Shown here in pieces: positions 3,892 to 16,873 of a stretch of 22,675 nucleotides of DNA. The notes under the pieces are model-generated. The model saw only the letters and a list, made by a program, of their open reading frames with translations. It searched no databases and was not told the origin of the DNA. The position numbers were made by a program, and so were the translations under genes. Every line of letters starts with the position of its first letter. Positions within the stretch are counted from its first letter, which is position 1. Source of the DNA: a virus. Where the stretch lies: the IMG/VR virus record IMGVR_UViG_3300024433_000060, positions 1 through 22,675 of that record; one strand, written 5' to 3'.

Positions 3892-3963
3892 TGCAAGGAG
3901 GGTGCTGGTTCCCAGTTAGGTCTCATAAGCCTGATTACGCAAGTTCGATTCTTGCCCTTGCTA
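3892..3963 (+). tRNA. tRNA with anticodon CAT (Met or Ile2)
   Basis: Acceptor TGCAAGG/CCTTGCT (3892-3898/3956-3962) pairs at six of seven positions, with the first pair T:T mismatched. The D-arm is GGG/CCC (3900-3902/3911-3913) around TGCTGGTT with the conserved GG. The anticodon stem TAGGT/GCCTG encloses CTCATAA with anticodon CAT at 3924-3926. The variable loop is 5 nt, and the T-arm is GCAAG-TTCGATT-CTTGC. Discriminator A3963; CCA is not encoded. All core distances are canonical. CAT may read AUG or, if the wobble C is modified to lysidine, AUA. An unpaired 1:72 position is an initiator-tRNA feature, but the anticodon stem lacks the three G:C pairs of initiators. It fills the gap between portal and minor head genes and ends 7 bases before the next ATG. 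Confidence 0.85.
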
Positions 3964-3970
3964 CAAAAAT

Positions 3971-4882
3971 ATGGCTGATAATAAAAAACTATCTGATCTA
4001 TGGAAGCGCAAAGATGATTACATTGCTTCTCGACTGGACTGGCTCAGTAAAAGAGTAGACCGAAGCCAGCAGATCCTATTATCTAGCTTAGTAAGTGATT
4101 TTATGGGTGAATTCTCAGTAGACGAGACAGGTAAGTTAATAGCCAATACAAAGAATATGCGGCTAACTATGAAGTTAGACAAGTTCTTTGATACGCTGGA
4201 CACAGAAACACTCAGAAAGGTAAACACTCAGTACGGCCAGGATATGCTTAAGCTTACTCCATTATCAGAGAGATATTATTCAAAGATGCTCCCCGATGCT
4301 GCTGATGCCATAAAGAGTATAGGGGAAAAAGTAGGATTCATTGAGACATCGATAGGCATAAAAAAAGGTAAACTAATCAAAGGAGGTTATTTAGAGAAGG
4401 TAACCAGGATGCCGGAAGTTCGCCAGGAGCTAAAAGATTATGTTATCCGGTCAGTGAACAACAAAAAAGGCTATTCTGAGTACCTTCGGGGAATGAAAGA
4501 GATTGTTACCGGAACAAAGGTACGAGATGGAATGATTGAACGGTACTACAGGCAGTTTGCGTATGATACGTTTAATCAGACAGATGCGGCAATTAATAAA
4601 CATTATGCTGACAGTTTGGAGCTAACATGGTTTGTTTACGCAGGTGGAACGATAGATACTTCTCGACAATTCTGTATAAAACGTGCAAACAAAGTCTTTA
4701 ACACGAAAGAGACAGAGAAATGGAAATGTGACCCTTATCTGATAGGCAAGCCGAAGGGTGTACGATGTGACCAGAAGTACAATGCTTTGATAGAACGCGG
4801 CCGGTGGAATTGTAGACACTCGATACGGTACATTACAGAGAGTTTGGCTTGTGAGCTTGGCAGAAAGGAAGCTTGTGATTAG
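3971..4882 (+). CDS. Minor head protein, SPP1 gp7 / Mu F family
   Basis: 303-residue protein following the portal, as in many siphophages. The C-terminal part has the family signature: an SRQFCIKRANKVF stretch (about residues 230-245), then the conserved GRWNCRHSIRYI at 277-288. The N-terminal two thirds is helical and charged. Members of this family bind the portal or the inside of the prohead and take part in head assembly or DNA exit. Downstream it overlaps the first glycosyltransferase gene by 8 bases, so the sugar cassette is joined directly to it. C-terminal cysteines (C294, C302) lie outside the core motif. Confidence 0.85.
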   Translation: MADNKKLSDLWKRKDDYIASRLDWLSKRVDRSQQILLSSLVSDFMGEFSVDETGKLIANTKNMRLTMKLDKFFDTLDTETLRKVNTQYGQDMLKLTPLSERYYSKMLPDAADAIKSIGEKVGFIETSIGIKKGKLIKGGYLEKVTRMPEVRQELKDYVIRSVNNKKGYSEYLRGMKEIVTGTKVRDGMIERYYRQFAYDTFNQTDAAINKHYADSLELTWFVYAGGTIDTSRQFCIKRANKVFNTKETEKWKCDPYLIGKPKGVRCDQKYNALIERGRWNCRHSIRYITESLACELGRKEACD

Positions 4883-5480
4883 CGTAATAATGCCCTCCTA
4901 TTTAGGTAAGTACAAAACTGCTGCTAAAGATCGGGATACAAAGATTGTTCGGGCAATACGAAGCGTACAGGGACAGACCTACAAAGACTGGGAGTTAATA
5001 ATAATTGCTGATGGATGTGAAAAAACAGTTGAAATTGTCAAGCAAATTAACGATCTTTATAACGTTAAAGTCTTATACATTGACAAGCAGCCGCAATGGA
5101 GTGGCACTGTCAGAAACACCGGACTAGATGAAGCTAAAGGCGATTATTGTTGTTACCTGGATATTGACGATGCGTTTGCTCCGGGGCATTTGGAGGGATT
5201 GGCTACGGGCAGCAAGAATGGGAAAGATTGGTATTGGTTCGATGACTATGTTTGGAATGGACAGGAATTCAGGCATAATAAATGCAATATCAACAAAGTC
5301 GGGCGTTGTGGAACATCCAATATCATGCACAGACCTAACGTTGCTCGATGGAACAAAAAAGGCAATTACTCACACGACTGGAAATTTATCACTAACTTGC
5401 GACAAGCCTCTAGGGATTACGAATACATTAGAGCCGGGGAATACCTCGTTTGTCACGTGCCCGGAAGATTCGATATATGA
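4875..5480 (+). CDS. Glycosyltransferase, family 2 (GT-A)
   Basis: 201-residue single-domain GT-A enzyme when started at GTG 4875. It opens with the family 2 nucleotide-binding strand (ISVIMPSYL), continues with the SVQGQTYKDWELIIIADG motif at about 30-47, RNTGLDEAKGDY at 80-91, and the metal/nucleotide-binding DIDD at 96-99. It would transfer a sugar from an NDP-sugar in the cytoplasm; donor and acceptor cannot be read from the sequence. GTG 4875 is preferred because AAGGA lies a few bases upstream and the protein then begins at the first beta strand as its paralogue at 5821 does; a GTG at 4851 would add eight residues. There is no membrane segment or signal peptide. First gene of the sugar cassette. 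Confidence 0.88.
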   Translation: MISVIMPSYLGKYKTAAKDRDTKIVRAIRSVQGQTYKDWELIIIADGCEKTVEIVKQINDLYNVKVLYIDKQPQWSGTVRNTGLDEAKGDYCCYLDIDDAFAPGHLEGLATGSKNGKDWYWFDDYVWNGQEFRHNKCNINKVGRCGTSNIMHRPNVARWNKKGNYSHDWKFITNLRQASRDYEYIRAGEYLVCHVPGRFDI

Positions 5481-5501
5481 TATACAACTAAAATTTATAC
5501 C

Positions 5502-5708
5502 GTGGAATATAAAGAATTAATCGATTATCTTATTAAAACGCATCCATATCCTGAAGATGTATTTATCCCACCTACTAAGGAACAATGGGAGCAGTTCCAT
5601 AAAGTCCTTAAAGATGCAGGGATGGGTTCAGATGGATTTGTGGGACATTGTTGCAGGATAGGTTATGATGCTTGTTTATATCAACTAAAAAAAATTGAGG
5701 AGGAATAA
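5502..5708 (+). CDS. Hypothetical 68-residue protein
   Basis: Small, slightly acidic cytoplasmic protein starting at GTG (5502). Visible features are YPEDVFIPPTKEQWEQFHKVL in the middle and the segment GFVGHCCRIGYDACLY with three cysteines and a histidine near the end, which could hold a metal or just be structural. The last residues (LKKIEEE) are coded by the purine-rich run that serves as ribosome binding site for the next ORF, so the two genes are spaced as a pair. No family recognised. It lies between two glycosyltransferase genes. Confidence 0.65.
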   Translation: MEYKELIDYLIKTHPYPEDVFIPPTKEQWEQFHKVLKDAGMGSDGFVGHCCRIGYDACLYQLKKIEEE

Positions 5709-5710
5709 TA

Positions 5711-5824
5711 ATGGCGTGTGGATGCAAAAAAAAGAAAGGTGCTAAAGTAGCTAAAACACCGAATAAGATAGTAGTTCCGAAAGGTTCTTCAAGATATGTA
5801 GTTCCTACTAAACGTAAAAGATGA
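5711..5824 (+). CDS. 37-residue cationic protein with CGC motif
   Basis: Short ORF (MACGCKKKKGAK start, TKRKR end) preceded by the strongest Shine-Dalgarno run in the window (GAGGAGG, 8 bases before the ATG). Its stop overlaps the ATG of the next glycosyltransferase (ATGA), a typical coupled junction. About a third of the residues are Lys or Arg, and two cysteines stand at positions 3 and 5. It could bind nucleic acid or a metal, or act mainly as a translational lead-in for the gene behind it. The ribosome binding site and exact junction argue that it is translated; no homologue is recognised. Confidence 0.7.
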   Translation: MACGCKKKKGAKVAKTPNKIVVPKGSSRYVVPTKRKR

Positions 5825-6462
5825 TTTCTATTATCACCCGTTGCCGCAATAGGCTTGAATACACTGCTCAGGTTTTAGATGCTGTTCGTAGTAACACGAA
5901 ATGCGACTATGAGCATATAATTATTGATAATGATAGCTCCGATGGTACAAGAGAATGGTTTAATTGGATGCTGGTAAATACTGATTCATGGTATAATCAT
6001 GTGACTTATTGCCGAATGACAAGAAATTACGGTGACTGGGGTGGTATGTTGGCCGGATTCCTTATAGCAAGAGGTGATTATATTGTTCAATTAGATAATG
6101 ATATTATTCCTTGCGAAGGCTGGCTTACAGCGATGCTAACAGTCTTAAATAAGACAAGCTATAAGGTAGTAATGCTCAAGAGAGATAACGTAGCCTGGGA
6201 GCTAAAACCGCTATCTACGCCTAAAATTATAGACGGTTTAGAGGTTACAAGAGTAGAAAGAGCCGTTGCATGTTACATGATGAGCCGGGAAAGCTTTGAA
6301 TTGTGTGCTAAATATATACCACCGAAGAGAGGTGCATTGAGTAAATATATCATGGCTGGATTGAAACCGAAAATATGGAAAGGATTAAAACCAATTGGAA
6401 AGATTCTAAATAAGACTTGCATAGAGCTTGGCAGATTTCCAGAGACAGAAATATTCACCTAA
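5821..6462 (+). CDS. Glycosyltransferase, family 2 (GT-A)
   Basis: 213-residue GT-A enzyme. The N-terminal strand MISIITRCRN is followed by EHIIIDNDSSDGTREW (31-46), RNYGDWGGMLAGFLIARGDY (69-87) and the DXD motif LDND at 91-94, all characteristic of family 2. The C-terminal portion (about 165-213) is basic and may form the acceptor or membrane-surface contact. Cytoplasmic, no signal peptide. It is coupled to the 37-residue ORF by an ATGA overlap. It differs clearly from the enzyme at 4875, so the two probably use different donors or acceptors and are not a recent duplication. Confidence 0.9.
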   Translation: MISIITRCRNRLEYTAQVLDAVRSNTKCDYEHIIIDNDSSDGTREWFNWMLVNTDSWYNHVTYCRMTRNYGDWGGMLAGFLIARGDYIVQLDNDIIPCEGWLTAMLTVLNKTSYKVVMLKRDNVAWELKPLSTPKIIDGLEVTRVERAVACYMMSRESFELCAKYIPPKRGALSKYIMAGLKPKIWKGLKPIGKILNKTCIELGRFPETEIFT

Positions 6463-6474
6463 AAACCCTCAGAT

Positions 6475-6828
6475 ATGGGAGAAGATATAGTTAAAATACT
6501 TGAATTCAAAGTACCCCCTGCTAAAATAATGCTAAGAATAGGCAATAAAGAACAATTATCTGAATTTTGCAAAAAACATGGGATTATAGAAGTAGAAGAA
6601 TATGTCCATGCTCGTTCTTTATGGTTCCAAGATGAAAATAAATTTATTTTATTATTAAGGAATGATTGTGAATTAAAGATTCATGAATTGGTACACGAAT
6701 GTAAACATCTTACTAATTTCATCATGGAATCAAGACAATGGAAACTTGATCTTGATAATGATGAACCTGAATGTTATTTGCTTGGAGAAATATTTAAAAG
6801 AATATATGCGATATGGGAGAAAATATAA
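6475..6828 (+). CDS. HExxH zincin-like protein
   Basis: 117-residue protein with HELVH at residues 70-74, the zinc-binding and catalytic motif of zincin metallopeptidases, followed about 23-27 residues later by DNDEPECYLLGEIF, where an acidic residue (E97 or E99) could be the third zinc ligand. Small proteins of this build, with a HExxH helix and a later D-E-A/P-x-x-YL segment, are common in phages of many hosts; their substrate is unknown to me. There is no signal peptide, so it would act in the cytoplasm or in the particle. It overlaps the next glycosyltransferase by 16 bases. Peptidase activity is inference. Confidence 0.7.
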   Translation: MGEDIVKILEFKVPPAKIMLRIGNKEQLSEFCKKHGIIEVEEYVHARSLWFQDENKFILLLRNDCELKIHELVHECKHLTNFIMESRQWKLDLDNDEPECYLLGEIFKRIYAIWEKI

Positions 6829-7481
6829 TCTTTACAGCTTATTTTACCACTAAAAAGGATCCCCAAAGGAGAAAATATTGGAAGCAAAATGATATAACAC
6901 TCATTAATCCTTTGTATGACAGCGTAAAGCGACTGGGATTAAATATGATTATCTTCCAGGATGGGGCAAGTAAGGAGTTTGTTAACAAGTATTCAACAGA
7001 CAAGATACGATTTGAGAGATATAAGCTTAGAGGTGAAATTCCCCTCACAGAGCGGTTCAGGTGTTATTTCCACTATTTAAAGAAATATCGATATGAAAAG
7101 ATATTATGCCTGGATTGTGGAGACCTGGAACTTTTCAAAGATCCATTTCCGCTGATTGATGATAGTATACTGATTGGATCCGAAGAGAGTAAGATAGGTG
7201 ATTCAGTGTGGATAAAAGATAAATTCCAAAAAGCCTTTGGTGAAGTTTCGCATGAAGACAAAAAAGTATTAAATTGCGGTATCCTGGGAGGGCAATATGA
7301 TAACTTATTCACGTTGCTATCAGAATTTAAACAAATAACAGATACTATGAAGCGTAATGCTGATATGGCTATTTTCAATAAACTGATCTATGATGGATTT
7401 AAATTCAAGACGGGTTATCCTATTCATACGGTTTTTAATAAATTTGAGACAGATTCAGGTTGTTATATAAGGCATAAATGA
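6813..7481 (+). CDS. Putative glycosyltransferase (GT-A, GT8/GT77-like)
   Basis: 222-residue protein with the outline of a retaining-type GT-A enzyme that is not family 2: a start strand NIIFTAYFTTKKDPQRRKYW, the metal motif DCGD at 101-104 in the setting ILCLDCGDLELFKDPF, then LNCGILGG at about 152-159 and a DMAIFNKLI motif near 183-191, which in GT8/GT77-like enzymes bind sugar and acceptor. The start ATG overlaps the HExxH gene and the stop overlaps the next ATG (ATGA). No membrane segment. Assignment rests on the motif order; the exact family needs a profile search. Confidence 0.72.
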   Translation: MGENIIFTAYFTTKKDPQRRKYWKQNDITLINPLYDSVKRLGLNMIIFQDGASKEFVNKYSTDKIRFERYKLRGEIPLTERFRCYFHYLKKYRYEKILCLDCGDLELFKDPFPLIDDSILIGSEESKIGDSVWIKDKFQKAFGEVSHEDKKVLNCGILGGQYDNLFTLLSEFKQITDTMKRNADMAIFNKLIYDGFKFKTGYPIHTVFNKFETDSGCYIRHK

Positions 7482-8143
7482 TAGACATAGTAATTGTAAC
7501 CAACAGCATAAACAGCCCTTTATGGTCAATGACCAGGAATGCTATTCGCACAGCCAGAGAGAATGCAGGAATGCAGATAGGTCAGGTAGTAGTAGTTGAA
7601 GAGTGTCTTACGGCCAGAGAGCAACCAGGTACAAAAATGCTTTACTATGATTTCGAGTTTAATTACAATAAATGTCTTAACTTGGGCTTTTCGGTCTGTG
7701 AGAATAAATATGTAGCTTTCTGTAATAATGATCTATACTTCGAGCAGAATTGGGCTAAGAACGCTATTTATGCAATGGAAACGTTTAGCTTTTTAAGTGT
7801 CAGTCCTACTCCAAGGCATATATTCGGAGGGTTAAGAGTAGGTTATGAAGTCGGGAAACATGTATTAGGATGGTGTATTATCATGGATCGGGTAGTAATG
7901 GATATGATCGGAGGGTTTGACTATCCTGTAAGGTTCTGGTATTCTGACGATGTTTATGCAGAACAACTAAAAGCCGCCGGCATACAACATGCACTAGTAG
8001 GTAATTCTCTTGTAAGACATCTCACAAGTGTAAGCCTTCTCAATCGGAAGATAGTTAGTGGCAAGTTACGCATGGATATGCAAAAAGGACAGGAGAAGAT
8101 TTTTAAACAATATAAAAAAGAAAAGTATGAAAGCACAAATTAA
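7478..8143 (+). CDS. Glycosyltransferase-like protein, family 2
   Basis: 221-residue GT-A-type protein. FNYNKCLNLGFSVCENKY (61-78) followed by VAFCNNDLYF (79-88) matches the family 2 pattern in which the DXD position is NND (N83-N84-D85). A later GGFDYPVRFWYSDDVYAEQL resembles the catalytic ED/DD region of these enzymes. The last 25 residues are strongly basic. The protein begins with the nucleotide-binding strand MIDIVIVTNS. It is coupled to the gene before it by ATGA and overlaps the small ORF after it by 17 bases. The donor is unknown. Confidence 0.83.
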   Translation: MIDIVIVTNSINSPLWSMTRNAIRTARENAGMQIGQVVVVEECLTAREQPGTKMLYYDFEFNYNKCLNLGFSVCENKYVAFCNNDLYFEQNWAKNAIYAMETFSFLSVSPTPRHIFGGLRVGYEVGKHVLGWCIIMDRVVMDMIGGFDYPVRFWYSDDVYAEQLKAAGIQHALVGNSLVRHLTSVSLLNRKIVSGKLRMDMQKGQEKIFKQYKKEKYESTN

Positions 8144-8285
8144 AATTACTTATCCGGGGCCACTAAACGTAGAGGTTGATAAAAAAATCACCAAGGCAAT
8201 GGAATTGACCGGCGCGAAATGGTGGGCGCAAGGGACTAATTTATCATCCAATGAAAGGGATATTTGTTTTGATTTAGAAGTATGA
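8127..8285 (+). CDS. Hypothetical 52-residue phage protein
   Basis: Starts at ATG 8127 inside the end of the preceding glycosyltransferase gene. The sequence MKAQIKITYPG..., ending in GAKWWAQGTNLSSNERDICF, matches a small, widespread phage protein type in which a W-x-A-x-G-x-x-x-x-x-x-x-R-D core is conserved; its function is unknown to me. The frame could be extended upstream to 8058, but that part would lie wholly within the glycosyltransferase gene and lacks the conserved look. The last gene before the 101-bp structured gap. Confidence 0.65.
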   Translation: MKAQIKITYPGPLNVEVDKKITKAMELTGAKWWAQGTNLSSNERDICFDLEV

Positions 8286-8290
8286 AAAAA

Positions 8291-8357
8291 CCGGGGTGGA
8301 AAGTTGCTGCATCCTCTCCTAACAGCTTTACCCCGGCTTTCAAGGACATATAGTCCT
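8291..8357 (+). other. Two consecutive RNA hairpins in the cassette gap
   Basis: Hairpin 1: CCGGGGT (8291-8297), a GG bulge, AAAGTTG (8300-8306), a 16-nt loop, CAGCTTT (8323-8329) and ACCCCGG (8330-8336), together 14 pairs including one wobble. Hairpin 2: AGGAC (8343-8347), loop ATATA, GTCCT (8353-8357). They fill the 101-base gap (8286-8386), the only non-coding break within the cassette. There is no T-tract directly after hairpin 1 beyond CTTT, so a strong intrinsic terminator is unlikely. A processing site, attenuator, mRNA stabiliser or small structured RNA are possible. Confidence 0.6.
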
Positions 8358-8386
8358 CTACCTCCAATTGGATTAATACAAAGATA

Positions 8387-9088
8387 ATGAAAATATCTAT
8401 AGTATCAGCAATATGGAAGCGTAAGGCATTGACTAAAATCTTTCTTTCGAGTCTTCAGAGATACAAAAAAGACTACGGGATAGAGGCGGCAATAGCGGGG
8501 AGCGAAGGTCTAAAATCAAAAAGAATGTGCCTAGACTATGGAGTAGCCTATGTAGAAACTCCTAACAAACCTCTCAGTAACAAGTTTGTTAAAGCTTCTC
8601 AGTTAGCGGCCATGAGATTCAATCCTGATGGGTTTCTGATTCTAGGAAGTGACGATTTCATTGATGATGCTTTGATTCAGAAATATTTCAAGACACTAAA
8701 AGACGGTGCGGATATAACGGGCATAAAAGACTGTTATTTTTACCATACAAGAAGCAAGGAAGCTATGCACTGGATAGGATACACGAATTTCCGCAAAGGA
8801 GAGACTGTAGGCATGGCCCGTATGCTCAGTAAGAAAGCTTTTAACAAACTCAACGGCAAGCTATGGCCTTCGGGTATGAATTCCGGGCTTGATTATAATA
8901 TGATGAAAAGACTAAGGATGCACAATAATTTTAACTGGATCTCTTTTTCTATTAAGGGAATGGTTGCAGTAGATGTTAAGGGACAGGGGAATATTACGGG
9001 GTTTGATTGTTACCGTGAGAATATGGAGCCTGTAGATATAAGTATTTTTGATACTATACCTGAATTTAAACTAATAGAGAGATTGTGA
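8387..9088 (+). CDS. Glycosyltransferase-like protein (GT-A)
   Basis: 233-residue protein with a family 2-like N-terminus (MKISIVSAIWKRKALTKIFL), conserved phage-type middle FLILGSDDFIDD at 83-94 with the SDD acting as DXD motif, and a GETVGMARMLSKKAFNKL-GKLWPSGMNSGLDYNMMKRL region that could carry the acceptor site and catalytic acid. Bacteriophage-encoded proteins with this SDD and SGLDY arrangement are usually labelled glycosyltransferases. It is the first gene behind the double hairpin and overlaps the methyltransferase by GTGA. No membrane segment is visible. Confidence 0.75.
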   Translation: MKISIVSAIWKRKALTKIFLSSLQRYKKDYGIEAAIAGSEGLKSKRMCLDYGVAYVETPNKPLSNKFVKASQLAAMRFNPDGFLILGSDDFIDDALIQKYFKTLKDGADITGIKDCYFYHTRSKEAMHWIGYTNFRKGETVGMARMLSKKAFNKLNGKLWPSGMNSGLDYNMMKRLRMHNNFNWISFSIKGMVAVDVKGQGNITGFDCYRENMEPVDISIFDTIPEFKLIERL

Positions 9089-9642
9089 ATTATACTCCTA
9101 GCGCATATAATAAAATTTATAAATGTTCGACAAAATATAGATGTCATTATACAAAGAGTCCATATTATCCGTTATGGTTAGCTTCTTTAAAATATATTTC
9201 AGACAATATAATAGAACTTGGTTGTGGGACGGGGCAATTTGCACAAATATTCGGGGATAATCCTAATATTTCTTATATAGGAGTTGATTTCAGTGAGGAA
9301 GCTATCAATCAGGCCCGGTTAAGAAATCCATCCATGAAATTTATGTGTAATGATATTTGCTCAATTGATATATCTCAATATGATACTATAATAGCATTCG
9401 AGGTATTAGAACATATTAAAGATGATTTGGGTATTTTAGAAAGAATGAAACCCGGACAGAGAATTGTATTCTCAGTGCCGGATTATATGTCTGAAAATCA
9501 TTATAGATGTTTTAAATCGGAGGATGAAATATATTTGCGATATCAGTTATTAGATATTTATAATATTGAAGAATTTGAATTAGTGAAAAATAAATTTAAT
9601 GATGTAAACACATTATTTTTGGTCTATGGAAACAAGAGATAG
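9085..9642 (+). CDS. SAM-dependent methyltransferase, class I
   Basis: 185-residue Rossmann-fold methyltransferase. Motif I IIELGCGTGQFAQIF at 42-56, the acidic ribose-binding residue in GVDFSEEAINQAR (about 66-78), motif II-like NDIC at about 94-97 and AFEVLEHI at about 109-116 place it with the Methyltransf_11/25/31 group, which methylates small molecules and sugars more often than DNA. It starts at GTG 9085, overlapping the stop before it (GTGA), and overlaps the PP-loop gene by 17 bases. Its DNA looks more AT-rich than the neighbours. In this setting O-methylation of a sugar is the likely role, but the substrate is inference. Confidence 0.87.
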   Translation: MNYTPSAYNKIYKCSTKYRCHYTKSPYYPLWLASLKYISDNIIELGCGTGQFAQIFGDNPNISYIGVDFSEEAINQARLRNPSMKFMCNDICSIDISQYDTIIAFEVLEHIKDDLGILERMKPGQRIVFSVPDYMSENHYRCFKSEDEIYLRYQLLDIYNIEEFELVKNKFNDVNTLFLVYGNKR

Positions 9643-10759
9643 TTTAAAAACGACCTTCCACCGCGGAATCATGAAAGATGATCACGGGAATATGGATTAT
9701 GACTTTATACGTCTTGCCAATAAACAACAATCGCTTACTTTTCTGACAAAATTCCTTAACCATAGATATAATCCTCCTTGGTGGGAGACACCTTTCGAAG
9801 AGATTAAATTCACAACTCCAGCAGAACGGATTAATCCTGATTATAAATATTTGCTCAAAGATCAACCTAAAACGAAACTATCCATTCAGCAATTCACCCA
9901 AAATATAGTCGATGGAGTAAAAAAGTATATTGTTGTAAATCTCAAAGAAGGCGAAAAATATCTCATGTTACATAGTGGAGGTTATGATTCTCGCATTATA
10001 AGTTCTTGTATGCGTGATCTATGGCTGGAGGGATTGCGCTTTGATATTCATTTCCGCTGTCATCAGCCGGAGGGGCCACAATTTTTGGAGATTATGAAAC
10101 GACAGGGCTGGAATAAGGATCAATTTTCAATCTTTGAAGGAGCGAAGGAAAACTATTATAATATCGGCGATAAGAATAATACACTTAATGGCTGGAATAA
10201 TTACAATCAGTCCATGAATTTCTGGTCAGATATTGTTCCTGATGAAAGTAAATATTTTGTCATAACGGGATTGATGAGTGAGAGTTTCAAATATATTGCA
10301 ATGCATGGTAAAGAAAATTTTCCTAGAAGGAGCGATAATAGATTTATAGATATACTCTTACACTTCACTCCCGATGAGGGACAATGGGACTCTTTATATA
10401 TGATGGAATTTAAGGATTTACTTATGCCCCTTGGCTCTTATACATATCTTGAGCATGCTCTTACTGTTGACCCTGAGTGGTGTAAATTTAATGGAAAGAC
10501 TGATACTATACGAATAGAAATAACAAAAAGATTCAAATATAATATAACAGATATCCCATACGGAAGGCATGATTATAGCTGGAATCTGACAGATAAGTTT
10601 TTCAAAAAGCTTGAGAATGATTTTTATGATTCAGTATTCTATAAAAATTATGGAAAATATCTATCTAAAAAACCTGATTTCACAAAACTTTATGGTTGGG
10701 ATGCAAAATTATGGGGATTTATGACTGTATATGATGCAATATTTAAAAACTATGCTTGA
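9626..10759 (+). CDS. Asparagine-synthase-like PP-loop amidotransferase
   Basis: 377-residue protein with the ATP-pyrophosphatase motif SGGYDS at 117-122, preceded by the hydrophobic strand KYLMLH and followed by RIISS, as in the synthetase domain of asparagine synthase B. The N-terminal glutaminase domain and its catalytic Cys2 are missing: the protein starts METRDS. It would adenylate a carboxylate and might take ammonia from solution or another protein. Related enzymes act in cell-surface sugar pathways and in peptide maturation, so amidation of a uronic acid or a protein side chain is possible. Overlaps the genes on both sides. Enzyme class is well supported, substrate is not. Confidence 0.8.
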   Translation: METRDSLKTTFHRGIMKDDHGNMDYDFIRLANKQQSLTFLTKFLNHRYNPPWWETPFEEIKFTTPAERINPDYKYLLKDQPKTKLSIQQFTQNIVDGVKKYIVVNLKEGEKYLMLHSGGYDSRIISSCMRDLWLEGLRFDIHFRCHQPEGPQFLEIMKRQGWNKDQFSIFEGAKENYYNIGDKNNTLNGWNNYNQSMNFWSDIVPDESKYFVITGLMSESFKYIAMHGKENFPRRSDNRFIDILLHFTPDEGQWDSLYMMEFKDLLMPLGSYTYLEHALTVDPEWCKFNGKTDTIRIEITKRFKYNITDIPYGRHDYSWNLTDKFFKKLENDFYDSVFYKNYGKYLSKKPDFTKLYGWDAKLWGFMTVYDAIFKNYA

Positions 10760-11366
10760 CGAAAAGAGACTAATCTTATGTGCCGGATCGCAAACACGGT
10801 GGAACAAAGTTCTTAATCCTGATATCCCTGAGATCAAGCAACTAATAGAAGTCAAAGATGAAATACTAATTGAAAGAATACAACGTCAGTTTCCGGGATC
10901 TATTGTTATAACTCATTTAGACGCAATAAAGCAACATTCTACAATGGTATTTAACGTAGAGCAGGGCATTTGTACTCTAAACACTTTACTTACTACTCAC
11001 TTGCTTTGGTCAGAATGGACAACAATTCTTTTAGGAGATGTTAATTATGGAAAAGACACTATCAGGAAAATTAAGGCCCAGGAACAGCAGATACAGTTCT
11101 ACGGCGATCAGAAAGAAATCTATGCTTTAAAATGGCATCGTTCATTCAATGACTTTATAATAATGAATATCGGAGCAGTTATTAATAATCCGGGATGGAC
11201 TCCGCAATTTGGTAAACTATGGAATTTATATCGCAGTTGCACGGGTACTCATTTCATGGTTAGGAGTGAGATAAAAAAATTCTTTACCTTTGTAAGTGAT
11301 TCGCAGGATTTTGATATACAGGCGGAATACATTAAATATGCCAAGAAGCAAGGAATACGAAAATAG
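10752..11366 (+). CDS. Sugar-nucleotidyltransferase-like protein
   Basis: 204 residues from ATG 10752, beginning MLDEKRLILCAGSQTRWN: the CAGxxxRW glycine loop at 10-17 is that of nucleotidyltransferases that charge a sugar phosphate with an NTP (GT-A-like fold). TILLGDVNYG in the middle would be the metal-binding D of this class. The later GTHFMVRSEIKKFF also fits a nucleotide-binding fold. The start at 10752 is chosen because it puts the glycine loop close to the N-terminus and leaves an 8-base overlap with the gene before; ATG 10731 would add seven residues. It could supply the activated sugar for the cassette enzymes; which sugar is unknown. Confidence 0.65.
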   Translation: MLDEKRLILCAGSQTRWNKVLNPDIPEIKQLIEVKDEILIERIQRQFPGSIVITHLDAIKQHSTMVFNVEQGICTLNTLLTTHLLWSEWTTILLGDVNYGKDTIRKIKAQEQQIQFYGDQKEIYALKWHRSFNDFIIMNIGAVINNPGWTPQFGKLWNLYRSCTGTHFMVRSEIKKFFTFVSDSQDFDIQAEYIKYAKKQGIRK

Positions 11367-11601
11367 AATACCCGCTTTTTATCGCAGACAAACAATTGAT
11401 GTAATGTTATTTGTGCATGTTACGGCAATGATAGAACGCAATAAAATGGAGATAAAAGATGCTATTAATGACTTTTTTTTATTGTATGGAATTGATGAAG
11501 AAGAGTATCCTATAGGTACTGCCTTAAAGGTCTATCACAGAGTGCGTGTTAATTTTTTATGGACATCATTAAGAGACTCACTTGATAATTTAAATAAATA
11601 A
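11338..11601 (+). CDS. Hypothetical 87-residue protein
   Basis: Basic helical protein (MPRSKEYENRIPAFYRRQTI...) with no recognised family. It starts at ATG 11338 inside the end of the nucleotidyltransferase gene; an ATG at 11296 in the same frame would add 14 residues entirely within that gene. Hydrophobic-basic spacing in VMLFVHVTAMIERNKMEIKDAI suggests a helical bundle, perhaps DNA- or protein-binding. It contains an 8-T run (11473-11480) in its coding sequence. The last cassette gene; the capsid promoter overlaps its end. Confidence 0.6.
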   Translation: MPRSKEYENRIPAFYRRQTIDVMLFVHVTAMIERNKMEIKDAINDFFLLYGIDEEEYPIGTALKVYHRVRVNFLWTSLRDSLDNLNK

Positions 11602-12525: not shown

Positions 12526-13428
12526 ATGAACGAAAAAGAATTGCTTACCGGGCTTTTGACGAAAGCTTATAATAAAACGTCCGAGGAGATTTCAGCACTC
12601 CTTTACGAAAAAGCTGACGATTCTGATGAAGTTACTTTAAAAGAAGGTGCGCTTGACTTGGGACTTGACCTTGATACGAAACGAGTTGAAAAACTCAAAT
12701 CATCTGCCACGCTTGACAAAACTCAGATCAAAAATCTCCGTGACCAACATATCAAAGAGATCATGGAAGATTTTGAGAAGAAAATCAAAGCTGCTTACGG
12801 CATAGAGAGTACGTCAAAAGGTCTTGACCTTGTAAAAGAAATCATTGATCAGGTTTCAGAGTGTGACATATCTGATGAAAAAGTAAAGACTCATCCTCTT
12901 TATGTTGAGCTTGAAAAACTCAAGAGCAGAGAAGATTATGATACACTTCAGAATGATTTCAATGATTATAAGTTAAACCAGGACAAAATTTCCAGGCTTA
13001 CTAAAATCAAAAGCAACGTATTGTCTATATTTTCCAGCCTTAATCCTATACAAAGCGAGAATCCTGTAGTTGCTCAGAACCGTAGAGAAGATTTTCTCAA
13101 CAAGTTCGATCAATACGATTACGAACCACAGGAAAGCGGAGATCACCTGATTCTAAAAGGTGGTAACCGCATGGATGACCAACACGGTAATCCGATAAAA
13201 TTTGCTGACTTTGTAAAAGGACTTGCCGAGTTGAATTACGATTTTGCTCAGAGTGACCAGAGAGGCAACGCCGGAAATGACCCGGGTGGCAATGGTGGTG
13301 GAAGCCATATTGACGTACCTAAAGACGAAAAAGAATACCTTGCTAAGATGGCGGACCTTATGCAAAAGAACGATAAGGAAGGCGGTATAAAGCTTGCTGA
13401 GGCGTGGAATGCGTCCCAAAACAAGTAA
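12526..13428 (+). CDS. Putative capsid scaffolding protein
   Basis: 300-residue, highly charged, mostly helical protein directly upstream of the major capsid gene, the usual place of a scaffold. It shows a long coiled-coil-prone region (about 65-165), a Gly/Asn/Asp-rich flexible linker (AGNDPGGNGGGS, about 249-260) and a short helical C-terminus (AKMADLMQKNDKEGGIKLAE), an arrangement common to scaffolds whose tail binds capsid protein. No protease motif is apparent. It would fill the prohead and leave before packaging. Assigned from order and composition. Confidence 0.72.
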   Translation: MNEKELLTGLLTKAYNKTSEEISALLYEKADDSDEVTLKEGALDLGLDLDTKRVEKLKSSATLDKTQIKNLRDQHIKEIMEDFEKKIKAAYGIESTSKGLDLVKEIIDQVSECDISDEKVKTHPLYVELEKLKSREDYDTLQNDFNDYKLNQDKISRLTKIKSNVLSIFSSLNPIQSENPVVAQNRREDFLNKFDQYDYEPQESGDHLILKGGNRMDDQHGNPIKFADFVKGLAELNYDFAQSDQRGNAGNDPGGNGGGSHIDVPKDEKEYLAKMADLMQKNDKEGGIKLAEAWNASQNK

Positions 13429-13431
13429 AAA

Positions 13432-14445
13432 ATGTCAACAGCTAAAGGCGTGTTTTCAGAAACCGCCCTTGTAAACATCCAAGTAAAAGCAGATCAGATT
13501 TGGGCTGACCGTATTCAGAAAGTTGATTATGAACCACAAGCGGAAATCGTAAAGTGCATAATCGCTCAGACTACGGCTAAATTTGGTGATTTGAAAGGAA
13601 AAAAAGACCCGACTATAGATGTAGGCTGGGTCAATGCATGTGACGTTGAAGATGGTAGCTGTACCGATTGTACTATTTCGGGTACTGAACTGTCTACAAA
13701 CGTTGAAGAATACTACTTAAACCGCGAACGGTGTGCTGAATTTAAAGTTGGCGAAGATGTTTTCCGTACCAATTTCTTCGATTTCGAAGATATTGTTGCA
13801 AAAGGACTTCTGAAAGCTTCTCTTTCTTTAGACGAATGGTGGGCCGGTCAAGCGGTTGCTGTACTGAACGCCAATCTTGGTGTGAATGAATCTGACCATG
13901 GAAAAGGTGATGTAGCAGGAACAACTACTTATGTTCAGCCTGCTTACTGGAACGCTGATCTTATGGGTTATTTTGCCCGTGTAGCAAAGATGAACAGATT
14001 CAAAAATCCTATGCTTATTTCAGGTCTTAACCTGTATGAAAGTATCTGGACAGCCGAATGGGATAAATGCTGTGAGAACGGTATAGGGAAATTCGGTACT
14101 ATGGACTTTTGCTTTGATTTGTTTAACATTGATAGCGTCAATGACCCTAATTATATCACTTATATGTTGAACAAAGGATCCTTAGCATTTGTAACCAAGT
14201 GCTATTACGAAGCAAATAAAGCTGCAAATCCTGTTAAAAATATGGATCAATATCGCTGGTCGATGCCTTCGTTCTACTTACCGGGAGTATGTTACGATGT
14301 TCATTATAAAAATACTTGTGACGATGGGGACTTCTTCAGTCACGAATTCAAGCTGAAAACTTTCGGAGATATCTTTTTGAATCCTGTAGGTTGTACTGCA
14401 ACCCGTACAGGCATCCTTGAATTTGAATGTGGTGAAGAACCATAG
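13432..14445 (+). CDS. Major capsid protein (cysteine-rich)
   Basis: 337 residues, following the scaffold by three bases and followed by a strong terminator, as expected of the most expressed head gene. It has no signal peptide or membrane segment. The C-terminal region (FSHEFKLKTFGDIFLNPVGC) looks like the final P-domain strands of capsid proteins from Bacteroidota phages. It contains about 13 cysteines, including NACDVEDGSCTDC (70s-80s), DKCC, GVC and FEC near the end; this is unusual for a capsid and suggests disulfides or metal sites. An HK97-like fold is assumed from gene order, not shown. Confidence 0.82.
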   Translation: MSTAKGVFSETALVNIQVKADQIWADRIQKVDYEPQAEIVKCIIAQTTAKFGDLKGKKDPTIDVGWVNACDVEDGSCTDCTISGTELSTNVEEYYLNRERCAEFKVGEDVFRTNFFDFEDIVAKGLLKASLSLDEWWAGQAVAVLNANLGVNESDHGKGDVAGTTTYVQPAYWNADLMGYFARVAKMNRFKNPMLISGLNLYESIWTAEWDKCCENGIGKFGTMDFCFDLFNIDSVNDPNYITYMLNKGSLAFVTKCYYEANKAANPVKNMDQYRWSMPSFYLPGVCYDVHYKNTCDDGDFFSHEFKLKTFGDIFLNPVGCTATRTGILEFECGEEP

Positions 14446-14492
14446 AAATGACATAAAGTTTTTCATTGTCATAGTAAACTGTCTTAAATTTA

Positions 14493-15672: not shown

Positions 15673-16277
15673 CTCCTGAAGAAGCAGCAAAACGGTTTAA
15701 GCGATTGAGCCAGATGGTAGCTAGAGATATGCCTCAGTTCATTACCAGGCGTATTGCTGAGGACGCTCAGGAGTATATTCGCAGAAGGGTAACAATGCAA
15801 GGGTTAAATTATCGTGGAGAAGCATTTAAACCATATAGCAGGAAACCTATGCTTACGTCAGGTACAACCGAAAAAAGTAAGTTAATATGGACTAAATTAG
15901 CAAGTTCACCAGAAAAACGGAAGCAATTGCAATGGAGAACGATAAAACACAAAGGTAAGAATGTACGGTTATTTATTCTTCCTGGCGGTTATGCTCAGAT
16001 GAGAAGTTTAGAAGCAGGTTTACAAACTTCACACAAAGACTTTACATTTACAGGTCAAATGTGGCGCGGCTTTGGAGTAAAAAGAATATCTAAAACAAAG
16101 AATGAATTTGTTGTTACTTTGGGAGGGAAAAACGTAGAAGCTCAAAAGAAGATTGATGCAAACTCAAAGCGCGAAGGTGTTAATATCATTAATCTTTCAG
16201 ACTCAGAGACAAAGAAATTAGCCAAGACAGTAGATAAAGAGTTACAGAGATACATAAATAAAGTAGGATTATCATGA
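15669..16277 (+). CDS. Neck/tail-completion protein (HK97 gp10-like)
   Basis: 202-residue, strongly basic protein. The pattern of a helical N-terminus (EAAKRFKRLSQMVARDMPQF), the RGEAFKPYSR motif and the SHKDFTFTGQMWRGFGVKRI segment fits the HK97 gp10 / Mu G-like virion morphogenesis proteins, which join the tail to the head. It lies in the right place, between capsid and tail terminator. Its start is coupled to the gene before (ATGA) and its stop overlaps the next ATG. Assigned from motif resemblance and order. Confidence 0.7.
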   Translation: MTPEEAAKRFKRLSQMVARDMPQFITRRIAEDAQEYIRRRVTMQGLNYRGEAFKPYSRKPMLTSGTTEKSKLIWTKLASSPEKRKQLQWRTIKHKGKNVRLFILPGGYAQMRSLEAGLQTSHKDFTFTGQMWRGFGVKRISKTKNEFVVTLGGKNVEAQKKIDANSKREGVNIINLSDSETKKLAKTVDKELQRYINKVGLS

Positions 16278-16873
16278 TATATAAAATAGCCGATCTGTTA
16301 AGAGACGAGATAAAGGATCTAAACTTTGTGGATATAGCTGTAGGTTTAGCCAAACCGACAGTAGTAAAAGTTCCCGGTCCGGAAGAAGAAATAACTCCTA
16401 TAATAGTTCCTATGGCTCTAAATAGCTTAGATGATCCTTGTATTCCGGGTGATCTCCTGCCGCTTGTTCCCGATACTACAAAGATGTCAATTCATTTCTG
16501 GGAAGATCAAGGCTTAGAACTTCTTAATGAAGGTACGTATTATTATCATTCCCAAGCTTCTTTGCGGCTTGTTAGTTGGTGGAATCTTCCGCTGATAAAC
16601 TCCGCTTATACTGATCCTTCTTTGCTAGTGGCCAATCTTATCGCCGAGATACCAGAATCGCTTACGACAATAGATTATTTATCACAGATCCAGGTAATGT
16701 TTAACGGCGAAGAAACCGGGGCCAACGTAGTAGCTGCTTATAACTTCGATGAACCGGAGAATCAGTTTACTACTTATCCTTATGTGTATACTGCACTGAG
16801 TTATGTGGTGGAGTTTGCTTTCGGTAAGAATTGCGTTGATGCTGTTGTATTAAATCCTTCGGCATGTCCTTAG
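16274..16873 (+). CDS. Putative tail terminator protein
   Basis: 199 residues. An N-terminal helix (MIYKIADLLRDEIKDL), a strand-helix unit in the middle (ASLRLVSWWNLPL followed by LLVANLIAEI) and the closing strand YVVEFAFGKNC resemble the small alpha/beta tail terminators that cap the tail tube at the head end. Order after the gp10-like gene supports this. It could instead be a head-tail joining protein. It ends with NPSACP, overlapping the following membrane protein start by 10 bases. Confidence 0.5.
   Translation: MIYKIADLLRDEIKDLNFVDIAVGLAKPTVVKVPGPEEEITPIIVPMALNSLDDPCIPGDLLPLVPDTTKMSIHFWEDQGLELLNEGTYYYHSQASLRLVSWWNLPLINSAYTDPSLLVANLIAEIPESLTTIDYLSQIQVMFNGEETGANVVAAYNFDEPENQFTTYPYVYTALSYVVEFAFGKNCVDAVVLNPSACP

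Follow-up and report, generated by a model that had tools for sequence, protein, structure and literature searches.

A multi-step glycan cassette with conserved root genes and an exchanged interior in a phage head operon

The 22,675-nucleotide stretch of viral DNA analyzed here (IMG/VR record IMGVR_UViG_3300024433_000060, positions 1 to 22,675; hereafter the window) carries a multi-step glycan cassette in its head operon, at 4875-11366, and the comparison with relatives supports the view that they keep it as a block. Besides five glycosyltransferases, it encodes a methyltransferase, a PP-loop protein, and what is probably a nucleotidyltransferase, and it is flanked by a MuF-like minor head gene on one side and a scaffold/capsid pair on the other. 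It probably assembles a decorated oligosaccharide on a virion protein in the host cytoplasm, with a conserved root and a variable tip, and as a system it is a larger, modular form of phage virion glycosylation rather than a new kind. Only a few phages in culture are known to glycosylate their virions, and none that we came across does so with so many enzymes.

Relatives were collected as fifteen contigs from portal searches and as further ones from searches with the first and fifth transferases (GT1 and GT5; the numbers denote gene order in the window). All of these records are fragments, and gene order was read only as far as each contig extends. Relatives whose portals are 45-74% identical hold the block in the same place, and the conservation as a block that an earlier, sequence-only reading of the window had proposed as a check is borne out. 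The order in the window and in the related loci L004, L005, L010, L014, and L017 is TerL, portal, MuF, GT1, GT2, (GT3), GT4, GT5, a variable part, a border gene, scaffold, and capsid, and wherever a relative's contig covers this region and the block has not been lost, head genes flank it on both sides. GT1, GT2, GT4, and GT5 are conserved almost like the head genes, whose divergence theirs tracks at a somewhat faster pace; identity between L004 and the window, for example, is 63% for the portal and 68% for MuF, and 60, 57, 55, and 49% for GT1, GT2, GT4, and GT5, respectively.

The five different GT-A-type proteins claimed at 4875, 5821, 6813, 7478, and 8387 are all supported as glycosyltransferases. 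They belong to different families, and recent duplication is not their source. GT1 (4875-5480; this and all other window genes given below lie on the plus strand), the first gene of the cassette, is a GT2-family (GT-A) glycosyltransferase (PF00535, 8.5e-18) that starts with GTG, overlaps MuF by 8 nt, and occurs in 49 viral loci, and its DIDD motif is invariant. GT2 (5821-6462) belongs to the same Pfam family (PF00535, 4.2e-20) and has an invariant DND motif. Between the relative L002 and the window, most changes in GT1 and GT2 are synonymous, and because the proportion of nonsynonymous changes (pN, 0.16) is well below that of synonymous ones (pS, 0.53-0.73), both are genuine genes under purifying selection. 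GT3 (6813-7481; phrog_1579, 1e-18) is found among relatives only in L005, while 340 phage records match it, nearly all of them mycobacteriophages. The conserved GT4 (7478-8143; phrog_22332, 1e-22) is 31-37% identical to transferases of Gordonia and Mycobacterium phages. GT5 (8387-9088), a divergent but conserved GT-A-type protein with a GSDD motif that occurs in 62 viral loci, was itself without a match and was recognized via its orthologues, two of which, at 29.5 and 24.1 bits, exceed the PF00535 cut-off. Its profile and that of GT1 align across the DxD region (hhalign E 8e-4, at a probability of just 24%), and its profile comparisons with GT2 and with GT4 were not significant.

The claim that nearly all of the cassette genes overlap stands for most gene ends, which do so by 4-29 nt, but gaps of 340 bp (5481-5820), 12 bp, and 101 bp (8286-8386) interrupt the series. 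The largest gap holds two small open reading frames (ORFs), one of 68 residues (5502-5708) and one encoding a 37-residue Cys/Lys-rich peptide, MACGCKKKK... (5711-5824), with similar peptides in the corresponding position of L002, L003, and L005. Peptides of the pattern M[A/G]C.C.KK... lie between GT1 and GT2 at 4485 in L002, at 6476 in L003, and at 6188 in L020, and among close relatives their kind is preserved more than their sequence. A 52-residue ORF (8127-8285) overlaps GT4. The earlier gene list placed its ORFs correctly but omitted two genes, the border gene described below and a 117-residue zincin-like HExxH protein (6475-6828; HELVH at residue 70) that matches phrog_1365, a family of unknown function, at 1.1e-13. 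The latter is not seen in the cassettes of relatives and is a doubtful member.

Downstream of the transferases, the presence of a class I S-adenosylmethionine-dependent methyltransferase, also claimed earlier, is confirmed (9085-9642; PF13489, 1.4e-14). The same protein matches mad2, and since a variable island inside fixed borders resembles defense hotspots, the block could be taken for a defense or counter-defense island. The mad2 match, however, spans the methyltransferase fold alone, no other PADLOC match was obtained among ten proteins, and the contents are consistently glycan enzymes; the defense-system reading was rejected as exceedingly improbable.

The next gene encodes a PP-loop ATP pyrophosphatase/AMP-ligase-like protein (9626-10759) that resembles the C-terminal domain of asparagine and beta-lactam synthetases and carries the motif SGGYDS. 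A single-sequence search of phage records and viral contigs found no relatives of it, but relatives are present in L004 and L005 and keep SxGYDS there. In a low-confidence AlphaFold model (predicted local distance difference test score, pLDDT, 38), the PP-loop part matched beta-lactam, asparagine, and NAD synthetases in Foldseek with a probability of ~1 and E 0.003-0.02. The protein starts with METRDS, showing no N-terminal Cys glutaminase domain, and has no glutaminase match in Pfam. Because the glutaminase domain of class II asparagine synthetases is absent, it is ligase-like only, and the description as an asparagine-synthase-like enzyme holds for the motif and, in part, for the fold, but not for the amidotransferring half. 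The last of the enzymes (10731-11366) is probably a nucleotidyltransferase of the sugar-phosphate or CMP-sugar type, as its motif AGSQTRWN...K and weak fold matches suggest: the top matches of a low-confidence AlphaFold model (pLDDT 50) were IspD, AGPase, and CMP-sugar synthetases (E ~0.03), and an orthologue matched PF12804 weakly (E 0.022). Its orthologues, 44-49% identical, end the interior in L004 and L005. The cassette closes with the border gene, a conserved ORF of 87 residues (11338-11601) with orthologues in L004, L005, L014, L017, L098, L100, L101, and L137. Most of the ORFs are identified as glycan enzymes, two identities being weak. The sequence-only reading saw in them a possibly complete path that activates and modifies a sugar and assembles an oligosaccharide; a multi-step cassette is indeed present, but completeness is not supported, as the contig has no epimerase/dehydratase or aminotransferase and the nucleotidyltransferase call is weak.

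The part between GT5 and the border gene varies among relatives. L004 and L005 both have PanD there (E no higher than 1e-28), along with an epimerase (E no higher than 5e-56) and the nucleotidyltransferase; their GT-B-like enzymes number two to three and their PP-loop proteins one or two, and L005 has in addition a formyltransferase, a rhamnosyltransferase-like protein, and a methyltransferase. L014 and L017 have an ATP-grasp-like protein, recognized by inspection only, and GT2-like transferases, with a GT25-like transferase and a methyltransferase in addition in L017. The variable part of L010 includes an epimerase; the epimerases of these interiors are NAD-sugar epimerases. The aspartate 1-decarboxylase PanD matches PF02261 at 3.6e-32 in L004 and 1e-28 in L005 and preserves K9, Y22, G24-S25, R54, T57, Y58, and N72, residues whose roles we take to be those known from Escherichia coli PanD. 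Inside the cassette, it is located at 8639-9001 in L004 and at 8843-9190 in L020, and its processing site is intact. A search of other viral contigs for PanD returned only the same two, L004 and L005; the gene occurs in a few phage records, without a shown tie to glycans, and no literature linking beta-alanine, PanD, and phage glycans was found. Its presence suggests that the PP-loop ligase of L004 and L005 might activate beta-alanine, while the window has the PP-loop protein and lacks PanD. Another protein within a cassette, of 367 residues (L100, 10930-12033), has an N-terminus that by inspection resembles a B12-binding radical-SAM enzyme.

PP-loop and ATP-grasp enzymes and PanD are known in small-molecule pathways too. 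The block might accordingly make a free or small-molecule glycoconjugate, or modify tRNA or another host target, its head location being an accident of hitchhiking. We regard this as improbable, given that each cassette holds several transferases and that divergent relatives retain the head location.

The borders of the block are largely fixed, GT1 standing near the start and the 87-residue ORF last, even where the block lies on the other side of MuF. It is found between portal and MuF in L100 and L101, which are more distant, and after MuF in L098; in all three, the border gene ends the block right after GT4. GT1 comes first in L100, whereas a methyltransferase lies upstream of it in L101, and acyltransferase-like and transferase-like ORFs (by inspection) do so in L098, and the left border is therefore less strict in the latter two. 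In L137 (3227-3541), a GT1 truncated after ~30 codons comes next after the portal and is joined directly to the border gene, which MuF follows. The overlapping record L136 is identical, the head genes beside the GT1 stub are intact, and no GT2-family match was found in these two records (15.6 kb for L137 and 7.7 kb for L136). The simplest history for L137 is that recombination removed the interior, and therefore the head genes can do without the cassette. The block is an accessory module.

The sequence-only reading had pointed to the virion as the target and named the host surface as the main rival. A virion protein is indeed favored over both the host surface and DNA, because of the head location in divergent members, the occurrence of GT5 relatives beside capsid genes, and the homology with actinophage transferases, while the acceptor itself is a matter of conjecture. 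Of 21 non-redundant loci with GT5 relatives, four (L048, L052, L055, and L057) have the GT5-like gene immediately downstream of a major head gene of an unrelated type; the probability of this by chance is ~0.0004-0.02, a figure that depends on an assumed adjacency rate and fragment records and serves as a guide only. Other neighbors of GT5 relatives include head protease, portal, NeuB, WbqC, a sulfotransferase, and hexapeptide acyltransferases. Relatives of GT4 include gp17 of the Omegavirus LittleE, whose N-terminal half is a methyltransferase and whose C-terminal half is the GT4-like part. This fusion is encoded between major capsid and head-tail connector genes, in a set of transferases (gp15-gp21) occupying the same neighborhood as the present cassette, and it therefore links methyltransferase, GT4, and head. 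LittleE differs, however, in its Mycobacterium host and in having fewer activities, PP-loop protein, nucleotidyltransferase, and epimerase not being annotated there.

Phage-encoded transferases likewise act in the mycobacteriophages Che8, Corndog, and Myrna, where the target is the capsid and tail tube (Freeman 2023, as cited in PMC12363180 and PMC12619734), the glycans being reported there at the C-termini of both proteins. The Cheoctovirus locus of Che8 and SiSi encodes homologous transferases, the GT1 profile matching Che8 gp108 at 1.6e-9 and GT3 matching the C-terminal domain of SiSi gp96 at 6.6e-16, and the link with virion genes is found here too, in the place between MuF and scaffold/capsid in relatives. 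Che8, in contrast, has three transferases at its genome end, whereas here ~nine genes, including tailoring enzymes, lie in the head operon and have an exchangeable interior.

Several points weigh against a virion acceptor. Che8 gp110 and Corndog gp38 are reported to be essential for capsid glycosylation (PMC12363180, citing Freeman 2023; PMC12619734), but none of the cassette profiles matched gp110 at E 10; because this counterpart was not found and the glycan is predicted from the genes, the cassette is likened to the mycobacteriophage system and not classed in it. A search of the structural proteins for an acceptor signature, such as Ser/Thr-rich tails or sequons, gave nothing convincing, and the C-terminus of the putative capsid protein is conserved and not tail-like, offering no obvious acceptor tail. 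Placement within the head operon is a hint of timing rather than of target, and transferase homology would not settle the acceptor. A moderately hydrophobic stretch occurs in GT3 and in one GT-B-like protein of L005, and a 91-residue probable membrane protein lies within the block of L004. In the gut phages "Gratiaviridae", a transferase encoded between portal and capsid has been interpreted as modifying the host surface (PMC8008677), and the absence of flippase and DNA-modification genes noted below is incomplete because all records are fragments.

At a late stage of infection, the cassette might accordingly modify capsule, lipopolysaccharide, or a lipid-linked precursor at the host surface, which could, for instance, shut out superinfecting phages or prevent progeny from binding debris. 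The GT1 and GT2 profiles resemble transferases of envelope polysaccharides (chondroitin synthase, TuaG, WcaA, and PglI), and PHROG labels denote similarity to GtrB, through GT2-family transferases shared with GtrABC O-antigen conversion. However, the GtrA flippase and the membrane-anchored GtrB of that system were not found here, GtrA (PF04138) and Wzx flippase giving no match in six fragmentary records, and hydropathy maxima of the cassette proteins in the window do not exceed 1.44 over 19 residues, leaving no clear membrane segment. The "Gratiaviridae" precedent, compared by description, places a transferase at a comparable site in the head operon, but a single one accompanied by an ATPase and a HipA kinase. 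With little time left after expression from a late head operon, and with GT5 relatives accompanying capsid genes, a host-surface target seems rather unlikely. Sugar hypermodification of phage DNA, which would evade restriction, is quite improbable. Phages do make diverse glycans on DNA (Pyle 2024, as cited in PMC12619734), and soluble transferases with tailoring enzymes would fit; yet no thymidylate synthase-type hydroxymethylase (PF00303) or Tet/JBP (PF12851) gene was matched in the same six fragmentary records, the head operon is a late place for modifying DNA, and one relative has lost the block.

With a virion protein as the probable acceptor, the cassette can be pictured as an accessory module, presumably expressed late, that glycosylates the phage's own particles within the host cytoplasm, its soluble transferases drawing on nucleotide sugars. 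GT1 or another root enzyme would put the first sugar on a head protein, most likely the capsid, and GT2, GT4, and GT5 would extend it into the conserved root, in an order that we infer. The nucleotidyltransferase might activate one of the sugars and, together with the epimerase of relatives, prepare the outer ones, which the variable interior genes would add and decorate with methyl or formyl groups or in epimerized form. An acyl or aminoacyl group might come from the PP-loop ligase, or from the ATP-grasp-like ligase instead in the second clade (L014 and L017). Exchange of the interior would alter the outer glycan and leave root and head genes unchanged, and the presumable benefit is a changed particle surface, which might, for instance, alter adhesion or stability or help particles to evade surface binders. 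A more specific and tentative possibility is a system like a serotype locus, but for particles, in which recombination within fixed borders exchanges the outer part of a conserved capsid root oligosaccharide and some members carry PanD-made beta-alanine attached by the PP-loop ligase.

If virion glycosylation is indeed the role, phages outside the actinobacteriophages would put elaborate, variable glycans on their particles via a self-contained late module, a phage counterpart of O-antigen loci with a conserved root, a swappable tip, and occasional loss. The function of particle glycans becomes testable because relatives with a different or deleted interior share the head genes. The cassette would also be a source of enzymes for cytoplasmic, lipid-free multi-sugar protein glycosylation, and it would predict for the phage aspartate decarboxylase a role beyond coenzyme A supply.

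The window has no near-DNA match, and thus no close relative, among phage records. Its plus-strand order is terminase small and large subunits, portal, tRNA-Met, MuF-like gene, cassette, scaffold-like gene, putative capsid, and tail genes including one for a tape-measure-like protein. The terminase large subunit matches phrog_2 (1.9e-17) and the portal phrog_7376 (7.5e-17). TerL is best covered by Bacteroides phage BS-TP1 (28%), the portal is weakly covered by Polaribacter P12002 (26%), and gene starts are without Shine-Dalgarno sequences, all of which hints at Bacteroidota as the host group; a portal profile search of bacterial genomes found no prophage. The scaffold-like protein (12526-13428) was assigned by position and composition and is kept in all relatives that reach it. 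The putative major capsid protein (13432-14445), without a match in PHROG, Pfam, or PDB, was assigned by position and conservation (59-85% identity across relatives). A good terminator follows the capsid gene at 14492, while promoter and terminator scans within the block were near chance; the specific capsid promoter proposed earlier is not supported, promoter-like sites being near the shuffled background.

The MuF-like protein (3971-4882), encoded just upstream of the cassette, has a C-terminal NCRH...I motif, and its orthologues are present in every relative whose contig reaches that point, the one in L006 matching PF04233 weakly (E 0.082). In L006 (4356-5912), MuF bears a C-terminal extension of ~215 residues with a zincin-like HEYGH motif, and in L007 (5365-6801) the extension is likewise long; GT1 is not seen in either before the contig ends. 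The tRNA-Met (CAT) at 3892-3964 lies between the portal and MuF genes of the window; no tRNA was found in 14 related loci, and portal and MuF abut in several relatives. Further downstream, L004/L005 carry an orthologue of the gene at window 16274-16873 that exceeds it by ~240 residues (L021, 9407-10741; L022, 1132-2460). An inserted ORF that by inspection is GIY-YIG-like separates capsid from the structural gene after it (L021, 6719-7459), and a run of small related Cys-containing ORFs is located near the end of the tail region (L021, 17101-19010; L023, 12007-13136).

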